A stretch of 64,000 bases of DNA from Ypsolopha sequella. Taxonomy: Eukaryota > Arthropoda > Insecta > Lepidoptera > Ypsolophidae. The first letter of the stretch is position 1; the number at the start of each line of letters is the position of its first letter. Both the position numbers and the translations under genes were made by a program. The DNA is taken from assembly GCA_934047225.1 (NCBI GenBank), contig OW203983.1:1054001-1118000 (forward strand). Reading direction: 5' to 3'. Of the stretch, positions 1,359 through 57,800 are shown piece by piece. The notes below the pieces were generated by a model. It ran no database searches, was not told where the DNA came from, and saw only the letters and a list, made by a program, of their open reading frames with translations.

Positions 1359-1399
1359 CGAACGAGCACGCGAGCGCGAAGCGCGAGCGTGCGAGTTCG
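1359..1399 (+). other. Nested GA/GAA hairpin, subtype-a 5' region (representative)
   Basis: Read from the outside: CGAAC pairs with GTTCG, GA faces GA, GCACGC pairs with GCGTGC, GA faces GA, GCGC pairs with GCGC, and the loop is GAA. All stems are perfect. Copies in units 2, 9 and 12 have GGAAC with GTTCC in place of the outer pair. d(GCGAAGC)-type GAA loops and tandem G-A pairs are known to be unusually stable in DNA. Confidence 0.75.
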
Positions 1400-2815: not shown

Positions 2816-2919
2816 GCGAGGCCGAAAAACGAGCATGTGAGGACGGAGAACGCGCCAGTGAGGCCGAAGGCCGAGCTGGCAGCGTTCGGAGTCCGAACAT
2901 GCGAGTTTTTCGGCCGAGC
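2816..2919 (+). other. 104-base nested hairpin inside each internal repeat
   Basis: Stems from the outside: GC/GC, GGCCGAAAAAC/GTTTTTCGGCC, GCATG/CATGC, GGAC/GTCC, GAACGC/GCGTTC, GCCAGT/GCTGGC and GGCC/GGCC, capped by GAA. Between stems lie GA opposite GA (three times), TGA opposite GAA, GGA opposite GGA, and a single A. That is about 38 pairs in 104 bases. Most internal repeats keep it. Partial losses are seen in units 10, 12 and 13. Confidence 0.75.
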
Positions 2920-2979
2920 ACGACACCGCGGCTACCAGAGTCATATCTGATGTCATCCTAGGGAGGCCGAAGGCCGACC

Positions 2980-3012
2980 CCGGAGGACGATTCCGGAGGA
3001 ATCGTCCGGAGG
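2980..3012 (+). other. GGA-loop hairpin (variant of the same plan)
   Basis: GGACGATTCC pairs perfectly with GGAATCGTCC around a GGA loop. Outside this stem GGA faces GGA, then CC pairs with GG. The plan matches the GA/GAA hairpins, but with GGA as the unpaired word throughout. It is present in nearly every internal repeat and absent in both repeats of unit 13. Confidence 0.75.
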
Positions 3013-3613
3013 CCAAACAGTACCAAGCGGCGAGGCCGGAGGCCGAGCCTGTGAGGCCGAAGGCCGAACCGAGTATAAGCGAGGCCGATGAACGAACATA
3101 CGAGGCCGAAGGCCGAGTATGTAAGTTCATGAGGCCGAGTTCACATAACCCTGGGGGCATTACAATACTGTTTCACTTGGACATGTCTCCCGAACGGCTG
3201 AGGCTGGGCTTAGCGTGATTCAACTTCGTAGAAAGTTGGTTCAAGCACATTTCGACCGTTGACAGTTTGGACACTTGACTGCTGTCAGAGGAAACATTTC
3301 ACGTAACGGATCCCGGCGAGGCCGAAGGCCGAGCCTACAAGTGTCTTTATAGCGAGGCCGAAAAACGAGCATGTGAGGACGGAGAACGCGCCAGTGAGGC
3401 CGAAGGCCGAGCTGGCAGCGTTCGGAGTCCGAACATGCGAGTTTTTCGGCCGAGCACGACACCGCGGCTACCAGAGTCATATCTGATGTCATCATAGGGA
3501 GGCCGAAGGCCGACCCCGGAGGACGATTCCGGAGGAATCGTCCGGAGGCCAAACAGTACCAAGCGGCGAGGCCGGAGGCCGAGCCTGTGAGGCCGAAGGC
3601 CGAACCGAGTATA

Positions 3614-3677
3614 AGCGAGGCCGATGAACGAACATACGAGGCCGAAGGCCGAGTATGTGAGTTCATGAGGCCGAGTT
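3614..3677 (+). other. 64-base nested hairpin inside each internal repeat
   Basis: Stems from the outside: AGC/GTT (one G-T pair), GGCC/GGCC, TGAAC/GTTCA, ACATAC/GTATGT and GGCC/GGCC, capped by GAA. Every junction has GA facing GA except one (GA facing TGA). It is preserved in nearly all copies. Unit 1's second repeat has AA for one GA (3123-3124), and unit 9's second repeat loses one arm. Confidence 0.75.
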
Positions 3678-4227
3678 CACTTAACCCCGGGAGCATTACA
3701 AGACAGTTTCTTTTGGACCTATCTCGCAAACGTTTGAGCTTGGGCTTAGCGGGATTCGACTCCGTTGAATGTTGGTTCCAGCACATTTCGACCGTGTACA
3801 TTTTGGACCTTTGACAACTGTCAGAGTACACAATAGCAAAATATTAGTCCACTTCAATGGAATCAAAGTTACCACACGTATTTCAACGCGCTATTACGGT
3901 TACGACGATGACAATTTTGAAAACTGATCATGACCGATGACTTTTTTTCCCACCCGATCATGACCGATGACATTTCGTGATACAATTGACTTCTGCCCCT
4001 TACTTGAATGTCGTTTGATAATTAGTTACACTTCAATTTCAGCTTCCAAATGTGTTTCAAACTCCAAACCTCCTCAATCCTGTCACGTAAACGAAAAAGT
4101 TTCAACAACAACTATGTACAACCAACAACAACAGGTAACAACAACCAACAACCAATAACAATTAGTAACAATAGCGTTTACCACACACGCGGGCTGCCTG
4201 CAGCCCGCGCACCACGCAAAACACTAG

Positions 4228-12960: not shown

Positions 12961-12998
12961 TTGCGAGCATAGCGAGCGCGAAGCGCGAGCATGCGAGC
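12961..12998 (+). other. Subtype-b 5'-terminal hairpin insertion
   Basis: Subtype a begins T-CTATATA. Subtype b begins T, then ~36 bases of hairpin, then CTATATT. The insert has GC/GC, GA facing GA, GCATAGC against GCATGC (one bulged A), GA facing GA, GCGC/GCGC, and a GAA loop. It occurs in units 5, 6, 10 and 11, and the loop is GTA in 6 and 11. Unit 13 has only TGA at this point. Confidence 0.7.
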
Positions 12999-13240: not shown

Positions 13241-13267
13241 GTAGGCGAGCCCGAAGGGCGAGCCTAC
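13241..13267 (+). other. GA/GAA hairpin with GCCC/GGGC inner stem
   Basis: GTAGGC pairs with GCCTAC, GA faces GA, GCCC pairs with GGGC, and the loop is GAA. All stems are perfect. It is found only in subtype-b units. Both stems differ from the GCGC and GGCC versions, yet the unpaired GA and GAA words are the same. Confidence 0.75.
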
Positions 13268-13376: not shown

Positions 13377-13461
13377 GAACGAGCCCGCGAGCGCGAAGCG
13401 CGAGCGGGCGAAGTTCGCCGGAACAAGCCCGCGAGCGCGAAGCGCGAGCGGGCGCAGTTCC
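13377..13461 (+). other. Two adjacent GA/GAA hairpins with GCCCGC/GCGGGC stems
   Basis: The first (13377-13416) pairs GAAC/GTTC, GCCCGC/GCGGGC and GCGC/GCGC around GAA. The second (13420-13461) pairs GGAAC/GTTCC, GCCCGC/GCGGGC and GCGC/GCGC around GAA. Compared with the subtype-a hairpin, the middle stem has swapped an A-T pair for C-G on both arms. Present in units 5, 6, 10 and 11, partial in 13. Confidence 0.75.
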
Positions 13462-15583: not shown

Positions 15584-18198
15584 TTGCGAGCATAGCGAGC
15601 GCGTAGCGCGAGCATGCGAGCTATATTATATAAAATTACAAAACGGTAACTCACTCACTCACTCATTGACATGGTTGTTTAGTTGGAAGGAGTCGTTTGG
15701 GGTGGTAGTGATGTATGTATGGAATGTCGGGTGTCTAATACTGAGTGGGGAAAAAATCAGACATTTGACATTTTTTGACATTTGACATGGGTTTTTGACA
15801 TTTTAGTGAGGCGGGTCGTTGTATGGGATTTTGTATGGGAGTTTTGAAAAATTTCGCGAGTGAGTAGGCGAGCCCGAAGGGCGAGCCTACGAACGAGCAC
15901 GAACGAGCACGCGAGCGCGAAGCGCGAGCGGGCGAAGTTCGTAGGGATGTACCTGGGTACTAGGGATGGGAAAAATTGACATTTTTGACAGAACGAGCCC
16001 GCGAGCGCGAAGCGCGAGCGGGCGAAGTTCGCCGGAACAAGCCCGCGAGCGCGAAGCGCGAGCGGGCGCAGTTCCTAGGGATGGCCCCGGTCACTAGGGA
16101 TGGGAATTTTTTTTTTTTTTCTAAAATTTGTTACAAAAAAATTTTGTTTTGGCTATATCTTCGGAACGGAAGGTGGTACAACCCTAGGGGTCGGACCATA
16201 GGGTGCCAAAAAAGTTTCTTTTTTTTTTTTTAATGTCAAAACTTTAACGGCCCGTATCTCCTAGACGGCTTGAGTTAGACCCATGTTGATGGGTGTCTAA
16301 GAAAAGGTCTCGCCGAGATCTAGCCCCCCCCGGTGTCAAAACTTCAACGGCCCGTATCTCCCAAACGGCTGGAGCTAGACCCATGTTCATGGTACTCTAA
16401 GAAAAGGGCTCGGCGAGATCTTTCTGGAAATAAAATAAAAAAAAAAAAAAGTCGAAAAAAAAAAAAATTTTTACGAAAACTTTGGTCGGCCATATCTCCC
16501 GAACCGTAAGTCCTAGCGAGTTGCGGTTTCGACTTTAGTGATCGGTTCGCCGAGCGCTACCCGACCGCATAAAAGAATTTGACATTTGACATAATTTGAC
16601 ATTTTTTTGACAGGTCCAAAAAAGTACTCCGATTCGCTTGAAACTCGGTATCCAGGAGTAAATGGGGTCGCTGATTACGAATTTGTTGTCAAATTTGACA
16701 CTCTTTGACAACCGACAGGGACTTTGACACTTTTTCGAAAAAAATTGATTGGACATTTCTTCGGATATAACGGCGAGGCCGAAGGCCGAGCTTACAAGTG
16801 TCTTTCCAGCGAGGCCGAAAAACGAGCATGGGAGGACGGAGAACGCGCCAGTGAGGCCGAAGGCCGAGCTGGCAGCGTTCGGAGTCCGAACATGCGAGTT
16901 TTTCGGCTGAGCACGACACCGCGGCTACCAGAGTCATATCTGATGTCATCCTAGGGAGGCCGAAGGCCGACCCCGAAGGACGATTCCGGAGGAATCGTCC
17001 GGAGGCCAAACAGTACCAAGCGGCGAGGCCGGAGGCCGAGCCTGTGAGGCCGAAGGCCGAACCGAGTATAAGCGAGGCCGATGAACGAACATACGAGGCC
17101 GAAGGCCGAGTATGTGAGTTCATGAGGCCGAGTTCACATAACCCCGGGTGCATTACAATACTGTTTCACTTGGACATGTCTCCCGAACGGCTGAGGCTGG
17201 GCTTAGCGGGATTCAACTTCGTAGAAAGTTGGGTCAAGCACATTTCGACCGTTGACAGTTTAGACACTTGACAGCGGTCAGAGGAAACATTTCGCGTAAA
17301 CGATCCCGGCGAGGCCGAAGGCCGAGCCTACAAGTGTCCTTCCAGCGAGGCCGAAAAACGAGCATGGGAGGACGGAGAACGCGCCAGTGAGGCCGAAGGC
17401 CGAGCTGGCAGCGTTCGGAGTCCGAACATGCGAGTTTTTCGGCCGAGCACGACACCGCGGCTACCAGAGTCATATCTGATGTCATCCTAGGGAGGCCGAA
17501 GGCCGACCCCGGAGGACGATTCCGGAGGAATCGTCCGGAGGCCAAACAGTACCAAGCGGCGAGGCCGGAGGCCGAGCCTGTGAGGCCGAAGGCCGAACCG
17601 AGTATAAGCGAGGCCGATGAACGAACATACGAGGCCGAAGGCCGAGTATGTGAGTTCATGAGGCCGAGTTCACTTAACCCCGGGAGCATTACGAGACTGT
17701 TTCTTTTGGACCTACCTCGCAAACGTTTGAGATTGGGCTTAGCGGGATTCGACTGCGTTGAAAGTTGGTTCAAGCACATTTCGACCGTTTACATTTTGGA
17801 CCTTTGACAACTGTCAGAGTACACAATAGCAAAATATTAGTCCACTTCAATTGAATCAAAGTTACCACACGTATTTAAACGCGCTATTACGGTTACTACG
17901 ATGACAATTTTGAAAACTGATCATGACCGATGACTTTTTTTCCCACCCGATCATGACCGATGACATTTCGTGATACAATTGACTTCTGCCCATTACTTGA
18001 ATGTCGTCTGATCACCTGTTTCAACTCAATTTCAGCTTCCAAACGTGTTCTTAACTCGAAACCTTATCCTGTCACGTTAACGAAAAAGTTAAAACAACAG
18101 CTACATTACAACAACCAACAACAACAAATAGAGTACAACAAGGAACAATTACAACTCACGCGGGCTGCCTGCAGCCCGCGCACCACGCAAAACACTAG
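15584..18198 (+). mobile_element. Helitron unit 6, subtype b, 2 internal repeats
   Basis: 2615 bp. Same plan as unit 5, but the loop of the 5'-terminal hairpin reads GTA, not GAA. Internal repeats start near 16772 and 17308. In the second repeat the palindrome TGACAGCTGTCA is altered (near 17270, GACAGCGGTCAG). Confidence 0.83.
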
Positions 18199-36114: not shown

Positions 36115-38426
36115 TTGACTATATATAAAGCTACATAACGGTAACTGACTGACTGACTCATTGACATGGTTGTTTAGTTGGAAGGAGTCGTTTGGGGTGG
36201 TAGTGATGTATGTATGGAATGTTGGGTGTCTAATACTGAGTGGGGAAAAACCTCGACATTTGACATTTTTTGACATTTGACATGGTTTTTTGACGTTTTA
36301 GTGAGGCGGGTCGTTGTATGGGATTTTGTATGGGAGTTTTGAAAAATTTCGCGAGTGAGTAGGCGAGCCCGAAGCGCGAGCGGGCGAAGTTCGTAGTGAT
36401 GTACCTGGGTACTAGGGATGGGAAAAATTGTCATTTTTGACATTTTTAACAGAAAGTTCGCCGGAACAAGCCCGCGAGCGCGAAGCGCGAGCGGGCGCAG
36501 TTCCTAGGGATGTCCCCGGTCACTAGGGATGGGATTTTTTTTTTTCTAAAATTTGTTACAAAAAAAATTTGTTTTGGCCATATCTTCGGAACGGAAGGTG
36601 GTACAACCCTAGGGGTCGGACCATAGGGTGCCAAAAAAGTTTCTTTTTTTTTTTTAAATGTCAAAACTTTAACCGACCGTATCTCCTAGACGGCTTGAGT
36701 TAGACCCATGTTGATGGGTGTCTAAGAAAAGGTCTCGCCGAGATCTAGCCCCCCCCGGTGTCAAAACTTTAACGGCCCGTATCTCCCAAACGGCTGGAGC
36801 TAGACCCATGTTCATGGTACTCTAAGAAAAGGGCTCGGCGAGCTCTACCTGGAAATGAAATAAAAAAAAAAAAGCCGAAAAAAAAAATTATTTTTTTGCT
36901 AAAACTTTGATCGGTCATATCTCCCGAACCGTAAGTCCTAGCGAGTTGCGGTTTCGACTTTAGTGATCGGTTTGCCGAGCGCTACCCGACCGCATAAAAA
37001 AATTTGACATTTGACATAATTTGACATTTTTTTGACAGGTCCAAAAAAGTGCTCCGATTCGCTTGAAACTCGGTATCCAGGAGTAAGTGGGGTCACTGAT
37101 TACGAATTTGTTGTCAAATTTGATACTTTTTGACAACCGACAGGGATTTTGACCCTTTTTCGAAAAAAAATTGATCGGACATTTCTTCGGATATAACGGC
37201 GAGGCCGAAAAACGAGCATGGGAGGACGGAGAACGCGCCAGTGAGGCCGAAGGCCGAGCTGGCAGCGTTCGGAGTCCGAACATGCGAGTTTTTCGGCCGA
37301 GCACGACACCGCGGCCACCAGAGTCATATCTGATGTCATCCTAGGGAGGCCGAAGGCCGAACCGAGTATAAGCGAGGCCGATGAACGAACATACGAGGCC
37401 GAAGGCCGAGTATGTGAGTTCATGAGGCCGAGTTCACTTTACCCCGAGAGCTTTACAAGACAGTTTCACTTGGACGTATCTCCCAAACGTTTGAGATTGG
37501 GCTTAGCGGGATTCGACTACGTTGAATTGGTTCAAGCACATTTAGACCGTTGACAGTTTTGACACTTGACAGCTGTCAGAGGAAACATTTCACGTAACGG
37601 ATCCCGGCGAGGCCGAAGGCCGAGCCTACAAGTGTCTTTATAGCGAGGCCGAAAAACGAGCATGGGAGGACGGAGAACGCGCCAGCGAGGCCGAAGGCCG
37701 AGCTGGCAGCGTTCGGAGTCCGAACATGCGAGTTTTTCGGCCGAGCACGACACCGCGGCTACCAGAGCCATATCTGATGTCATTCTAGGGAGGCCGAAGG
37801 CCGAACCGAGTACAAGCGAGGCCGATGAACGAACATACGAGGCCGAAGGCCGAGTATGTGAGTTCATGAGGCCGAGTTCACATAACCCCGAGGGCGTTAC
37901 AAGACAGTTTCTTTTAGATCTATCTCGCAAACGTTTGAGATTGGGCTTAGCGGGATTCGACTCCGTTGAAAGTTGGTTCCAGCACATTTCGATCGTGTAC
38001 ATTTTGGACCTTTGACAACTGTCAGAGTACACAATAGCAAAATATTAGTCCACTTCAATGGAATCAAAGTTACCACACGTATTTCAACGCGCTATTACGG
38101 TTACGACGATGACAATTTTGAATACTGATCATGACCGATGACTTTTTCCCACCCGATCATGACCGATGACATTTCGTGATACAATTGACTTCTGCCCATT
38201 ACTTGAATGTCGTCTGATCACCTGTTTCAACTCAATTTCAGCTTCCAAACGTGTTTTTAACTCGATACCTTGTCCTGTCACGTTAACGCAAAAGTTAAAA
38301 CAACAGCTACATTACAACAACAAACAACAACAAATAGAGTACAACAAAGAACAAGAAACAATAGGAACAATAGCGTTTACCACACACGCGGGCTGCCTGC
38401 AGCCCGCGCACCACGCAAAACACTAG
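36115..38426 (+). mobile_element. Helitron unit 13, subtype b interior, terminal and shortest unit
   Basis: 2312 bp. The 5' end reads T-TGA-CTATATATAAAG: the subtype-b hairpin is gone and TGA remains in its place. The GTAGGC and GCCCGC hairpins near 36360-36390 are fused into one. Both internal repeats (37198 and 37606) share the same ~90-bp deletion between GAGGCCGAAGGCCGA words, and the first also lacks its opening hairpin. The unit ends at 38426, and LINE sequence begins with the next base (T). Confidence 0.83.
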
Positions 38427-39705
38427 TCTTATTGTAAAGGTAAATTGATTGTATACCAAATTGGTTTTGAGCAAACAAAGTGCTTAAGGTAACGCATTTA
38501 ATATCTGAATGGGGATTCCGTTTATTGAGAATTTTAGGGTCTATAGAGATGTTTTTATGAATTTTAAGCACACATTGCAGTATGTATAACTGTCTGACGG
38601 TAAGAACATTTGCATCTTTATATAATTTCGTTTTTGCGCAGCATTACTTTTAAAATAGTTCTCTGTGCAATTTAGATGCTAGTAAACTAAGTTTTGGATG
38701 CACCACCCCAAACAGTTATGCCATACAGTAAAATAGACTGAACAAGAGTTGTGTAAATGTATGTAATAAGTTGCTTGTTTGATATATTACGTTAATAGTT
38801 AAACAGCTATATTAATTTTCTTGCTCTCGTTGCTACTGCTTCAAGCTGAGGGTACCAAGAGAGATTTTTGTCAATTATAATGCCTAGGTATCTGGTGGAG
38901 TTAACTCTATTAATATTGGTACAGTTGCAATTTTCATTGTTAAAGTTTGTACACGTGTGAGCAGTTAGTTTAAAGTCATTGCCGGGTTGCGAAGAGTCAT
39001 AAATAGAGAATGGCATGTAGTTGGTTTTTGTCATATTTAATGTGAGTAAGTTGAGTTTTAACCATTTAATAATACTACGCAACCTAGTTTCAGCATTAGC
39101 GAAAGTCCCTGCCCAGTCGTTTCCGTGAAAGAGCAACGCAGTATCATCTGCGTATGAAAATATATGTCCATTAGCTATATTTAAATCAGTCAGGTCGTTA
39201 ATATAAATAAGAAAAAGGGTAGGTCCTAAGACACTACCCCGTGGAACGCCATAATTAGTGCTCGAAAGATCAGTGCTGAAAGTGTTGTTATCAAGTTTAA
39301 CTCTATGAGGCCGTTTCTTAAGATAGTCAGTTAGGAGAGATAAAAAAAGTTCCTCTAACACCCACCTTTTCTAGTTTGCGGAGGGGGATAGGAGCAGAGA
39401 CGGTATCAAAAGCTTTTTTTAGGTCCAGAAATATACATAGAGTTTTTTTTTATCGTCATGATGTTTAGTTATATTTTTTGTTAGGTCTAGAATAGCATTT
39501 TAAGTTCCAATGCCGTACTGTGTATTTGATAGTGTGCCATTTGAATTTAAGAATTTAATAAGTCGGCTATTGATTTATTTTTCAATGATTTTAAAGATAA
39601 CTGTCAGCACAGCAATGGGTCTATAGTTGTTGATATCGTCTCTGCTCCCACTCTTAAAAATTGCATGTATAATAGATCTCTTCAAGTATAGAACTAGGGA
39701 GTGAC
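38427..39705 (-). mobile_element. Decayed LINE reverse transcriptase, split by the Helitron array
   Basis: Read on the minus strand from ~39690, the translation gives IIHAIFKSGSRDDINNYRPI, then frameshifts and stops, then an open stretch at 39361-38807 with GVPRGSVLGPTLFLIYINDL, the catalytic FSYADDTALL and STRYLGIIIDKNLSWYPQLE. Beyond stops it continues as LVQSILLYGITVWGGASK and LTVRQLYILQCVLKIHK, ending near IYLYNK at 38430. This order is that of non-LTR retrotransposons (Jockey/CR1/R1-like; clade not settled). The Helitron array begins inside its 3' end at 38426/38427. It is not functional: a poly-T frameshift near 39340 and several stops break it. Confidence 0.8.
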
Positions 39706-54800: not shown

Positions 54801-57800
54801 ACAAAAGCCATCACTTCACATCATTTCTTTAGACCGGCTGTAAATGGACAGTATCTTTAAATGAAACTCATATAATAAAAGAGTAGAACTTGGCGTGTCT
54901 GTAAATTAAAAAAGTAATGAAAATCGAAAAGTAGTAACTAAAAAAGAAAAACAGAACACAAATTTTTAGAATTCTTTTCTGTCTGTCTATCTGTCTGTTT
55001 GTTCGCGCACATCTCCGAAACTACTAAACGGATAGTCTTTACAGGTGGACAGAACATAATTTAAATTAAAATATAGGCCCTTATTTTAATCGGGTGTCGG
55101 AAAAAGAAGAAAATTTAAAATGAAGGTCATAAAATCTAAAATACCAAGCTTTGAAGGCAATATTACTAAAATTGAAGTCCAAGCTGCGTTTCCCAACGAA
55201 ACATTTCTTGTTTCCTAAATTGATCCTCTGCTCAAGTATCTTTGGCGAAGCTAACGGCCGAGTCACGTTTCCGAACAAAATTACACTTTGATCCATTGCT
55301 AAAGTGGCTTTGGTGAGACCGAAGGCTACGCCACGTTTCCAGACGAAATTATATCTTGATTTTAATTTGATCCCCAGGTAAAGTGTATTGGCGAGGTCAA
55401 AGGGTAAAACGGCGTTTCCAAACGAAACAATTACTTGTTCACTGAATTGCTTCTCTGCTAATGTATCTTTTTTGAGGCCAAAGGCCGAGCCGCGTTTTGA
55501 AACGGAACTATATCTTGATCTCTAATTTGATCTCCGGGTAAAGTGTCTTTGGCGAGGCCAAACGCCTTGAACAATATCCGAACGAATTTTTTCTGTTTTT
55601 TGTTCTCTGACTTGATCCTCTCGTTAAGTGTGTTTAGCAAAGCCGAAGGCTTTTAAGTAGTATAAGTACTTGAACTTATCAATTATTAATTTATTTTGTG
55701 TATTAGCATGTAATTTAATATAATTTATTGAGTGTTTAAGTATTATATATATATATAAAATATATATATGGAAATCATGGCATTACCCCAACAACTTCCC
55801 CAATGCCAAAGGTTAGCTGGTAGAAAATACTTAATTTATTATTATTATTATTAAGGCTGAGCTGCAGTTTCGGACAAAATTATATCTCATTCTCTAATTT
55901 GATCCCCAGGTAAAATGTCATTTCTGAATTGATACACCGAAGGCTGAGCCGCATACATTCATAAACATAGATAATTAAATTAACCCTAAAATCAGTACTT
56001 ACATTCTGTTTTATTTTTTTTCAGTTGTGCAAGATTTCATTCTTAGGTTAACGGAATTCAGAAACAAACTTTCATCCTCTGTTTTAACCCCCTAGGGGAT
56101 GATTTTTCAAGAACGCTGAAACAGGTTATTCTTAATTTCTTACAAAAATTCGTCATACAAATTTTGATGGTTTTAATTAAAAAATTCAAGAAATTGATTT
56201 ACAAAAACTTATCCCTTTTTAAAAAACGCTGAAAATGTCTTATTTTCTAACCTTAAAATCAATTTTCATTATTTTTATGCTAACAAATTTTCCGTTTAAA
56301 TTTTCATCCCTTTTCTATCCCTTAAGGGGATGGTTTTTAAAACGCTGACACACGTCGTTTTTTATTTCTAACCAAAAGATTTCATATCAATTTTCATGGT
56401 TTTATTTTCATAAACAACTAAATTTCTATTCAAACTTTCTTTTCATATTTTAATAATATATAGGTCAATGTTTTAAGACAGCGTTCCATATTGATCTAGT
56501 TAATTAATTAACCTAACTTTAGTCAGTTCAACACCTCGTGCCATCACTCACCTCATGAAGTCAACGAACACGGGCTCCTGGTCCATCATCTTGCGGTACT
56601 GCGGTCCGAGAGTCGTGTCGGCGGTATCGAACAGCGCCTCGTGAAACCACCGCTGGTCCGACTCGTGCGTGAACCGGTCACTGAATACGCGCGAGCACTC
56701 GTGCTTCCACAGCAACATGAGGCACTTCTCCGACTCTATCACTGTCGGAAGGGTGCCCACCATGCCTGACGACAAACAGCCATCACTTTACTGCACACAA
56801 ATTGTTGTACAGTACAATACATTGTATACAAGTGAACCCAATATAACTATATAATATCTTATCAGCCGAACCCGATTTTAGGACAAATTAAGTAGTTTGG
56901 CCTAGGCTAAGATGGTTCCAGGTTGTCATGAAAAATAATCACGAAGTTTAGATATGGCGAGTCGCACCATGTAGTTTTAATCTAACCTATCGGCTCTCCT
57001 AGCGCTGAAGGATTTCCGAAAAAGTAGTTTGTCCTAAAATCGGGTTTGGCTAGTTACAAATACAAGTTGGATCATAGTTGCTGTAAAGTCGAAAACTAGA
57101 TACATTTTTAGACATTCTGACGATGGAATTTTTTTTAAGAAATTGTGAAAAAAAAACTTTTCCATGAATTTTGGTAAAGTAAGGCCTTTTTTATGAAACG
57201 TTTGTGTTTTTGTTTCTAATTCAGTGTTGGCTCCTTAGTTTGTAATTTCGTATAGACGAGGACTATTTCTAGTTTTCGAGTTTTTAGCGGCAAAAAAACA
57301 GCCTGATAATATCAGATTGTAATACTTTAAACAACTTATGTACAACAATTTAAGCAAATAAATATCTTTATCTTTATCTTTAATATTCGTTTATTTCTTT
57401 TAATAAGAGTAACTGCATTTATAGACATTCGAGTGTTGTTTCTTCAAAACATTTATTTCTTATTATTGTTCCTGTCGATTAATGCCATAAGAGTGATAAT
57501 TTTGGATTTTTTACTGGTTCCATTTACATTAGAAGACATTAAAATCCCTATGAGATCTGTGGTATTCCTGCTATATCCTAGTTCCAGGATTCCTTCGGTA
57601 TTGGGTTCAATGAAATGACGTCTGTATCTCACAACGATTAATTTGGGACTAAGCACCACCCCGCGGCTGACACGCAACTCACTTAGTACAAGCGTTTAGT
57701 ACCTACATACATATCAAAATCTACAATGAGAACGAGGAGCAAATTACACAATAACACCGACCAACAAGTAAGAGTAAGGAAGCGATACCTTGCCACACTC

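Follow-up and report, generated by a model that had tools for sequence, protein, structure and literature searches.

A tandem non-autonomous Helitron in Ypsolopha sequella with nested, GA-punctuated hairpins on its 5′-to-CTAG strand

The closest described counterparts of the element analysed here are the insect non-autonomous Helitrons Hel-2, Lep1 and Hel1, which share with it a CTRR 3′ end and a stem-loop just upstream, as given in the relevant passages of three papers (PMC4344730, PMC4038834, PMC6544945). Hel-2 likewise ends in CTAG, and internal tandem repeat arrays are mentioned for it; those passages describe it with a 5′ inverted repeat, subterminal inverted repeats and a 3′ stem-loop, whereas nested GA-punctuated hairpins are a feature of the element in our window. 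Unlike Hel-2, Lep1 and Hel1, the units in the window are tandem and 2.3-3.6 kb long, and in their head-to-tail order they resemble the plant and bat Helitron arrays cited in PMC5876387, whose passages on those arrays leave internal hairpin arrays unmentioned. For Helraiser, sections of the published work report that the transposase cleaves only the plus strand of the end junction (PMC5876387), that circles are made, that the 3′ hairpin is the terminator and that head-to-tail arrays are known from plants and bats (PMC5876387, PMC4778049). A search of the open-licence literature for Helitron hairpins, Helitron arrays and the literal core sequences returned no description of nested, GA-jointed hairpins in a Helitron.

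Outside Helitrons, the loops are like those of d(GCGAAGC)-type mini-hairpins, with C-GNA-G loops on G-C stems; unlike in these laboratory oligonucleotides, the GNA loops here cap natural nested hairpins (passages of PMC4686876). Bacterial REPs, which unlike the Helitron hairpins are prokaryotic palindromes of 20-40 bp that often occur as inverted pairs, offer a further parallel, in that the HUH enzyme TnpA_REP takes folded single-stranded DNA as its substrate. According to the sections concerned, the unpaired joint of E. coli REPs, AA/GC as against GA/GA here, is required for TnpA_REP activity, and a G-A mismatch reduced the cleavage of one REP that is a perfect palindrome (PMC8266576).

In the window, by which we mean the whole 64,000-nt stretch analysed, positions 1-38426 (+) are a head-to-tail array of a non-autonomous Helitron, as read from its 3′ ends and unit structure: a partial unit at 1-1112 is followed by 13 complete units of 2312-3596 bp, each with a 536-bp hairpin domain in one to four copies, inside which most of its hairpins sit. 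The genome comprises 867 Mb in 151 contigs, and the array lies on contig C30 from 1054001 onward. The unit 3′ end CGCAAAACACTAG, located by a search word that itself contains CTAG, occurs at 14 places in the window, and after the first 13 the next unit starts without a gap; the last reads GCGGGCTGCCTGCAGCCCGCGCACCACGCAAAACACTAG. At 38387..38426 (+), and also in dispersed copies, this end consists of a 10-bp hairpin CGCGGGCTGC/GCAGCCCGCG, 14 nt and CTAG; the hairpin spans 22 nt and ends 14 nt ahead of CTAG, in keeping with the hairpin of ~16-20 nt near the 3′ end by which Helitrons are recognized. The CTRR ending is CTAG at the 14 unit ends and, by alignment, at 11 of 12 3′ ends of dispersed or dimer copies, where it is followed by a flanking T (11 of 12). 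The Helitron setting raised by the sequence-only reading is thereby borne out by the 3′ hairpin and CTAG, and the GA-hairpins run on the strand that leads from the 5′ end to CTAG. No open frame of at least 200 aa was found in the array, so its units look non-autonomous; the 14 array frames listed at 150 aa or above measure 151-196 aa, and 13 lie on the minus strand.

At the 5′ side, where a Helitron starts with TC, the 13 complete units begin with TCTATA (8), TTGCGAGC (4) or TTGACTATATATAAAG (1), that is, with TC in 8 and TT in 5. Dispersed copies match an array unit at 81-92% identity over more than 1 kb. Among dispersed or dimer 5′ ends, 14 of 18 read T before TGACTATATA (also given as T before TGACTATATATAAAG), with an ambiguous first base; a T precedes the element wherever the 5′ end is clear (14 of 14), and ahead of that T there is sometimes a base other than the A expected of Helitrons, which insert between A and T without target duplication.

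Five dispersed copies (L039, L041, L042, L055 and L057) start with the 5′ half and continue with part of that half in inverted orientation (unit positions ~1113 to 490); these are foldback-like elements derived from the Helitron. Tandem segments of 100 bp with the words TATCTCCCAAACGG / TATCTCCCGAACGG stand at 1701-1889 and are repeated across the array. Just past the array end, at 38807-39370, a fragment with a YADDT motif resembles, by eye, the reverse transcriptase of non-LTR elements, and pieces downstream of the array are what we take, by eye, to be a dynein heavy chain gene.

The hairpins had first been placed at 2816-3677, where they do lie, although the feature recurs through the whole 38-kb array. 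The GCCAGY/GCTGGC hairpin noted at the outset is present too, but as the mere tip of a 104-nt nested hairpin at 3352..3455 (+), which reads GC-GA-GGCCGAAAAAC-GA-GCATGT-GA-GGAC-GGA-GAACGC-GCCAGT-GA-GGCC-GAA-GGCC-GA-GCTGGC-A-GCGTTC-GGA-GTCC-GA-ACATGC-GA-GTTTTTCGGCC-GA-GC and which, from sequence, folds and 77 aligned copies, has seven stems, four GA/GA joints, one GGA/GGA joint and one A bulge; further copies lie at 2280, at 2816 and throughout the array. Downstream of it on the same strand are the nested hairpin GGCC-GA-TGAAC-GA-ACATAC-GA-GGCC-GAA-GGCC-GA-GTATGT-GA-GTTCA-TGA-GGCC at 3619..3672 (sequence, folds, 79 aligned copies) and the hairpin CC-GGA-GGACGATTCC-GGA-GGAATCGTCC-GGA-GG at 3516..3548 (sequence, fold, 78 aligned copies). 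Simpler forms, also on the plus strand, are GGC-GA-GGCC-GAA-GGCC-GA-GCC at 3315..3335 and GGC-GA-GGCC-GGA-GGCC-GA-GCC at 3565..3585, both read from sequence and found by the descriptor scan described below. Outer stems of 2 bp only occur in two types, namely GG-GA-GGCC-GAA-GGCC-GA-CC at 3497..3516 (+, from sequence) and a hairpin at 3583-3609.

Other types, read from sequence on the plus strand, depend on the unit. Units starting TCTATA carry GAAC-GA-GCACGC-GA-GCGC-GAA-GCGC-GA-GCGTGC-GA-GTTC (1360..1398), and those starting TTGCGAGC carry GTAGGC-GA-GCCC-GAA-GGGC-GA-GCCTAC (13241..13267), whose inner core occurs 457 times in the genome. To these are added GAAC-GA-GCCCGC-GA-GCGC-GAA-GCGC-GA-GCGGGC-GAA-GTTC at 13377..13416 and a 5′-terminal hairpin, GC-GA-GCATAGC-GA-GCGC-GAA-GCGC-GA-GCATGC-GA-GC, at 12963..12998, the loop of which is GTA in the units at 15584 and 30403. 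In a two-unit dimer elsewhere in the genome (L051), the inner junction has its own 5′-terminal GA-hairpin with a GTA loop, and the outer 5′ end is without one. Counted by sequence, the array holds ten hairpin types with 15 GA/GA and 2 GGA/GGA joints. The claim that joints are always GA/GA describes most of them; besides GGA/GGA, the departures are two A bulges (in the large and the 5′-terminal hairpins), GA/TGA near 3666 and GA/GAA at 13377.

These words are far in excess of chance. A descriptor with an inner stem of at least 4 bp, a loop of 3-6, a 2x2 junction and an outer stem of at least 3 bp finds 142 matches in the array (1-38426), of which 125, in 10 of the 20 distinct sequences, have GA/GA junctions, and the loops are GAA or GGA; 20 dinucleotide shuffles of the array give 5-21 matches in all and 0-2 with GA/GA each, and the other 25.6 kb of the window give 14 matches, none with GA/GA and none with TC/TC. 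The nested GA/GA-jointed hairpins, which can be read directly, are thus confirmed. Loops were counted with the pattern GA-stem4-NNN-stem4′-GA for inner stems of this family, in the array (GAA 197, GGA 33, GTA 2) and in 37 other loci, including two with an overlap of ~400 bp (GAA 316, GGA 38, GTA 4, GCA 1, TAA 1, AAA 1). Pooled over the window and the 37 loci, the counts are GAA 513, GGA 71, GTA 6, GCA 1 and two others, so that GAA, at first taken as constant, is dominant within a wider rule, GNA. On the plus strand of 3314-3680, GA occurs 46 times vs 13 for TC. The array's unpaired words correspond to known sheared-G.A words of DNA; stable sheared motifs in DNA include tandem pairs of the form Y-GA-R as well as (GGA)2, which belongs to the human centromere repeat.

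Density itself suggests another explanation, in which the motifs would be double-stranded protein-binding sites, or extruded cruciforms that drive array amplification or silencing. The 203 copies of GAGGCCGNAGGCCGA in the 38-kb array would suit it, yet duplex binding should have no need of complementary variable arms, and TC/TC on the other strand would make any cruciform asymmetric; we consider this very unlikely.

Folding of 3300-3700 under both DNA and RNA parameters gave z-scores of -9.3 (DNA +), -7.3 (DNA -), -12.0 (RNA +) and -7.9 (RNA -), with 0 of 100 shuffles as good for each strand and parameter set. The large hairpin at 3352..3455 (A) folds at -38.4 kcal/mol on the plus vs -35.2 on the minus strand with DNA parameters and at -72.4 vs -59.3 with RNA parameters, and large hairpin B at -16.6 vs -14.9 (DNA) and -35.0 vs -29.1 (RNA), which amounts to plus-strand advantages for A and B of 3.2 and 1.7 kcal/mol (DNA) and 13.1 and 5.9 (RNA). 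Short hairpin C favours the minus strand, at -11.5 (+) vs -11.9 (-) for DNA and -19.1 vs -23.6 for RNA.

The same calculations bear on whether the structure acts in RNA, a plus-strand transcript folding with tandem sheared G.A internal loops and being selected for stability, protein binding or processing. The RNA plus-strand z-score of -12.0 would agree with this, as would the ranking of junctions, in which GA/GA is joint best among 100 unpaired 2x2 junctions in 10 of 10 stem contexts with RNA parameters and ranks 6-10 of 100 with DNA parameters, a set that seems to hold no bonus for sheared pairs. The loops, however, are GNA triloops, and with RNA parameters a GAAA tetraloop beats the GAA triloop by ~2.1 kcal/mol, although a like preference, of 1.0 kcal/mol, exists in the DNA set; furthermore, the window has no match to any Rfam family at gathering thresholds, and we regard action in RNA as unlikely. 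Experiments on DNA run contrary to the GAAA preference of the energy sets, GNA mini-hairpins and likewise GNNA loops being exceptionally stable and nuclease-resistant, as reported in passages of PMC4686876.

That the stems change together was the central claim of the sequence-only reading, and it holds between hairpin types. A paralogous set of eight 27-nt hairpins represents seven of the ten types, one as two variants, and omits the hairpins at 3497 and 3516 and the 5′-terminal one, which do not fit the 27 columns. In this set 90% of cells are paired, both sides have changed in 8 of 10 pairs, a number matched in 1 of 500 shuffles, and covariation scores 0.582 vs 0.221 when shuffled (reached by 0 of 500). 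The count of additional pair types stands out less (46 of 500 shuffles), and slid versions of the alignment pair at most 37.5%. Within variants of one type the conclusion rests on few rows. A set of 14 distinct 35-nt rows, thirteen of one hairpin type plus the GTAGGC hairpin, is 96.4% paired and has both sides changed in 4 of 10 pairs; neither this number nor the covariation score is reached by any of 500 shuffles, and three of its four double-changed pairs depend on the single paralogous GTAGGC row. Across 70 copies of that type, outer stems are GCCCGC/GCGGGC in 40, GCACGC/GCGTGC in 11, GCACGC/GCGGGC in 10 and others in 9. Their outer pair 3 is C-G in 47, A-T in 12, A.G in 10 and C.A in 1, and the A.G state may be an intermediate in the exchange of C-G for A-T.

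Among near-identical copies, by contrast, joint change is weak and many changes are uncompensated. Single stem changes kept or broke pairing in 29/23 cases in hairpin A (31 distinct rows, one T/C site dominant), 5/5 in B, 2/7 in C, 2/3 in E and 1/2 in F2. Both partners changed and remained paired once in A, once in F2 and six times in E (the E cases being F-type hairpins aligned to E), and two rows of hairpin B changed both partners with pairing broken. In the 77 copies of the large hairpin, one GA/GA joint reads GA/TC, now paired, in 10 copies and GA/GC in another 7; 33 copies have a one-sided change in one A-T pair, with G or C in place of T. On the refuting conditions set out in the sequence-only reading, the outcome is mixed: covariation exceeds the shuffled and slid controls, which fall short of a full phylogenetic null because they leave relatedness in. 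Since a number of rows represent paralogous positions, part of the signal may come from gene conversion between adjacent hairpins. Hairpin segments also diverge less than their surroundings. In 30 dispersed loci, 161 of 9502 hairpin letters differ from the majority vs 401 of 8562 outside, and when 23 mostly-hairpin and 23 mostly non-hairpin blocks of 20 nt are compared (mixed blocks omitted), hairpin divergence is 2.4 times less (0 of 10000 permutations reach this); gene conversion could also account for this. A relative ~75% identical (L300) has part of the large hairpin's 5′ arm without the partner arm within 421 bp.

These observations also bear on a purely mutational origin, in which template switching and tandem duplication would make and re-make palindromes without function, the GA/GA joints marking inverted repeats that escaped deletion and recombination keeping copies alike. 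The inner parts of the hairpins can indeed be tandem heptamers (AGGCCGA, AGCGCGA), the GA-to-TC changes in 10 of 77 copies tell of palindrome-perfecting changes that do happen, uncompensated changes are common, and near 37346 a deletion joins two GAGGCCGAAGGCCGA words. Such an origin nevertheless predicts GA opposite TC or arbitrary mismatches, whereas GA faces GA at one joint after another; neither GCCC/GGGC nor the outer stems are tandem repeats, and the same words recur in unrelated bacterial palindromes, as described below. We find this origin rather unlikely.

A search of this genome for independent hairpin families, with A or T in the second inner pair, gave 177 matches vs 183 for the reversed control, and hence no indication of families of this kind. 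With A or T at the fourth flank position, the core GAGGCCGNAGGCCGA gave 1920 matches vs 0 for its control; among 100 such places listed, the two commonest flanks, which this Helitron also has, account for 62, and TGAC/GCTA, with only one outer pair forming, accounts for 21. One TGAC/GCTA place (L298) belongs to an 80-bp repeat family that is found also at window position 55300, and this family was dropped as an independent one because it has ~20 nt in common with the Helitron (by eye). Near dynein-like exons, at 55170-55650 of the window, the 80-bp-period repeat shows decayed hairpins, GGC-GA-GGCC-AAA-GGCC-AA-GCC; its more intact relatives (L298 and L299) include one unit with the inner stem GACC/GGTC for GGCC/GGCC and one with a GTA loop.

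A candidate partner enzyme was sought with PF14214, for which 150 of 455 candidates in the genome were scored. The matches listed include nine places with frames of 2239-2549 aa (on C12, C13 twice, C15 twice, C27 twice, C29 and C30), at six sites at most 100 kb from Helitron arrays and in the array's orientation in 9 of 9, which suggests that these array-adjacent frames of RepHel, an HUH Y2 enzyme with a helicase, may encode a partner of the Helitron; also among the matches are three places on C22 with similar scores and frames of 590-1077 aa, with no listed array nearby. Around the RepHel gene at C30:991975 (three stretches, 10 kb), only decayed matches of 69-71% to the internal hairpin segment were found. 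In the RepHel frame at L059:1447-3999, the N-terminal part (~850 aa) seemingly consists of repeated domains, one of which matches Herpes_teg_N below the curated cut-off.

The same words occur in bacteria. The exact core CGAGGCCGAAGGCCGAG, searched in prokaryote contigs (at least 118 stretches) and viral contigs (75 stretches), has an outer stem of at least 4 bp in 15 of 122 prokaryote matches listed vs ~2 expected from base pairing alone, and in 3 of 79 viral matches vs ~1 expected; among the 15 prokaryote cases, TGTCATCCC-GA-GGCC-GAA-GGCC-GA-GGGA accounts for eight and TGTCATTTC...GAAAT for two. The short core GA-GC-GNA-GC-GA was counted on 118 prokaryote loci (L137-L254) that had been picked for a related core and are hence a non-random sample: there the outer stem is paired for 19 of its 48 occurrences, which fall in 12 loci, comprise nine different stems and include every possible middle loop base, vs 2 of 77 for nine control cores in which joints or loops differ. 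The first viral set (75 contigs) has 27 occurrences of the short core, 0 of them with a paired outer stem. The word CCGAGCGNAGCGAGG has 676, 81, 89 and 4 copies in four bacterial genomes vs 0 for the reversed control, many of the listed copies being inverted pairs ~40 bp apart, and TCCCGAGCGNAGCGAGGGA is found in 42 viral stretches vs 1 for a joint-swapped control. One viral contig (L290:8462-8678) has three TCCCGAGCGNAGCGAGGGA hairpins at an exact 99-bp spacing, and viral loci L062-L136 hold two related hairpins, ATTGCGAAAGGACGAAGTCCTTGAGCAAT and ATTGTGAAAGGGCGAAGCCCTTGAACAAT, that keep GA/GA and GAA but differ in both stems through changes that preserve pairing.

By resemblance, the bacterial palindromes look like REPs of the CGTC/TGTC-tagged kind, the nearest described group, whose CGTC families are described with 4-5-nt loops and without a flanking transposase (sections of PMC3733652). 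A motif search of the loci for a Y1 transposase beside the palindromes yielded one unconvincing frame. PF01797, searched in three of the bacterial genomes (G001, G002 and G004), matches in G001 and G004 and not in G002; the G004 match lies ~20 kb from a listed palindrome copy, and the listed copies include none from G001. These palindromes have the form stem-GA-GC-GNA-GC-GA-stem with a variable, complementary outer stem, and beyond the short core they have no homology to the Helitron. REPs are short, high-copy prokaryotic palindromes with a 5′ tetranucleotide tag, whereas the Helitron hairpins lie within a mobile element of an 867-Mb genome and share the GA/GNA grammar alone. The assertion that no described element has this architecture was accordingly too strong, given 676 core copies in a single bacterial genome.

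On the earlier suggestion that selection or copying acts on a folded strand or on RNA, the cause we infer, among folded DNA, RNA and copying, is selection for a strand-specific single-strand DNA fold of the transferred plus strand in rolling-circle transposition, a reading to which we give a probability of about 0.5. The plus strand, from the 5′ end to CTAG, would be the one displaced and transferred as single-stranded DNA by the Helitron transposase, and the hairpins would be its strand-specific folding program, in which Watson-Crick arms alternate with joints that are nearly all tandem (GA/GA) or triple (GGA/GGA) steps, presumably of sheared G.A pairs, and end in GNA triloops. If the GA, GGA and GNA words of this strand stack almost like paired DNA, long composite hairpins should form on it; the same joints are TC/TC mismatches on the minus strand, where the long hairpins should fold less well, and the double-stranded form would hold no long perfect palindrome. 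At the single-stranded stage, the fold would likely protect or compact the displaced strand, hold it for the Rep/helicase or start second-strand synthesis.

In favour of selection on the transferred strand are the CTAG ends, the head-to-tail units, the position of the hairpins on the 5′-to-CTAG strand, the GA/GA excess and GNA loops, the covariation, the 2.4-fold lower divergence, plus-strand folding of the two large hairpins and the RepHel orientation (9 of 9), together with the passages on Helraiser plus-strand cleavage (PMC5876387) and GNA stability (PMC4686876), and the bacterial grammar. Against it stand the uncompensated changes in near-identical copies, the two broken hairpin-B rows, the GA/TC and GA/GC joint conversions, the dependence of the 14-row set on a single row, the strand bias of hairpin C, the DNA energy ranks, the lack of an A/T-second-pair excess, the lone arm in L300, possible gene conversion, the unpaired viral short cores (0 of 27) and the lowering of REP cleavage by a G-A mismatch in the section cited (PMC8266576).

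This is a Helitron with an unusual internal fold, in an architecture less unique than had been held, and the presence of the same words in REP-like palindromes of bacteria may, by analogy, indicate that both make hairpins specific to one strand by a common physical solution. Whether this punctuation (Y-GA-R, GGA/GGA, GNA) amounts to a general, convergently evolved sheared-G.A code for one-strand hairpins in HUH-moved elements is a tentative and doubtful idea. If true, an insect-type Helitron would use for composites of a hundred nucleotides a code that bacterial REP-like palindromes use in miniature, and the code would let the element tell the transferred strand apart, protect it and restart synthesis on it. 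To our knowledge, the mechanism of Helitrons beyond their two ends is poorly understood. Much of this element's 3′ half would be a designed-looking fold on the transferred strand, and it may thus offer a test of the role of internal single-stranded DNA structure in rolling-circle transposition.
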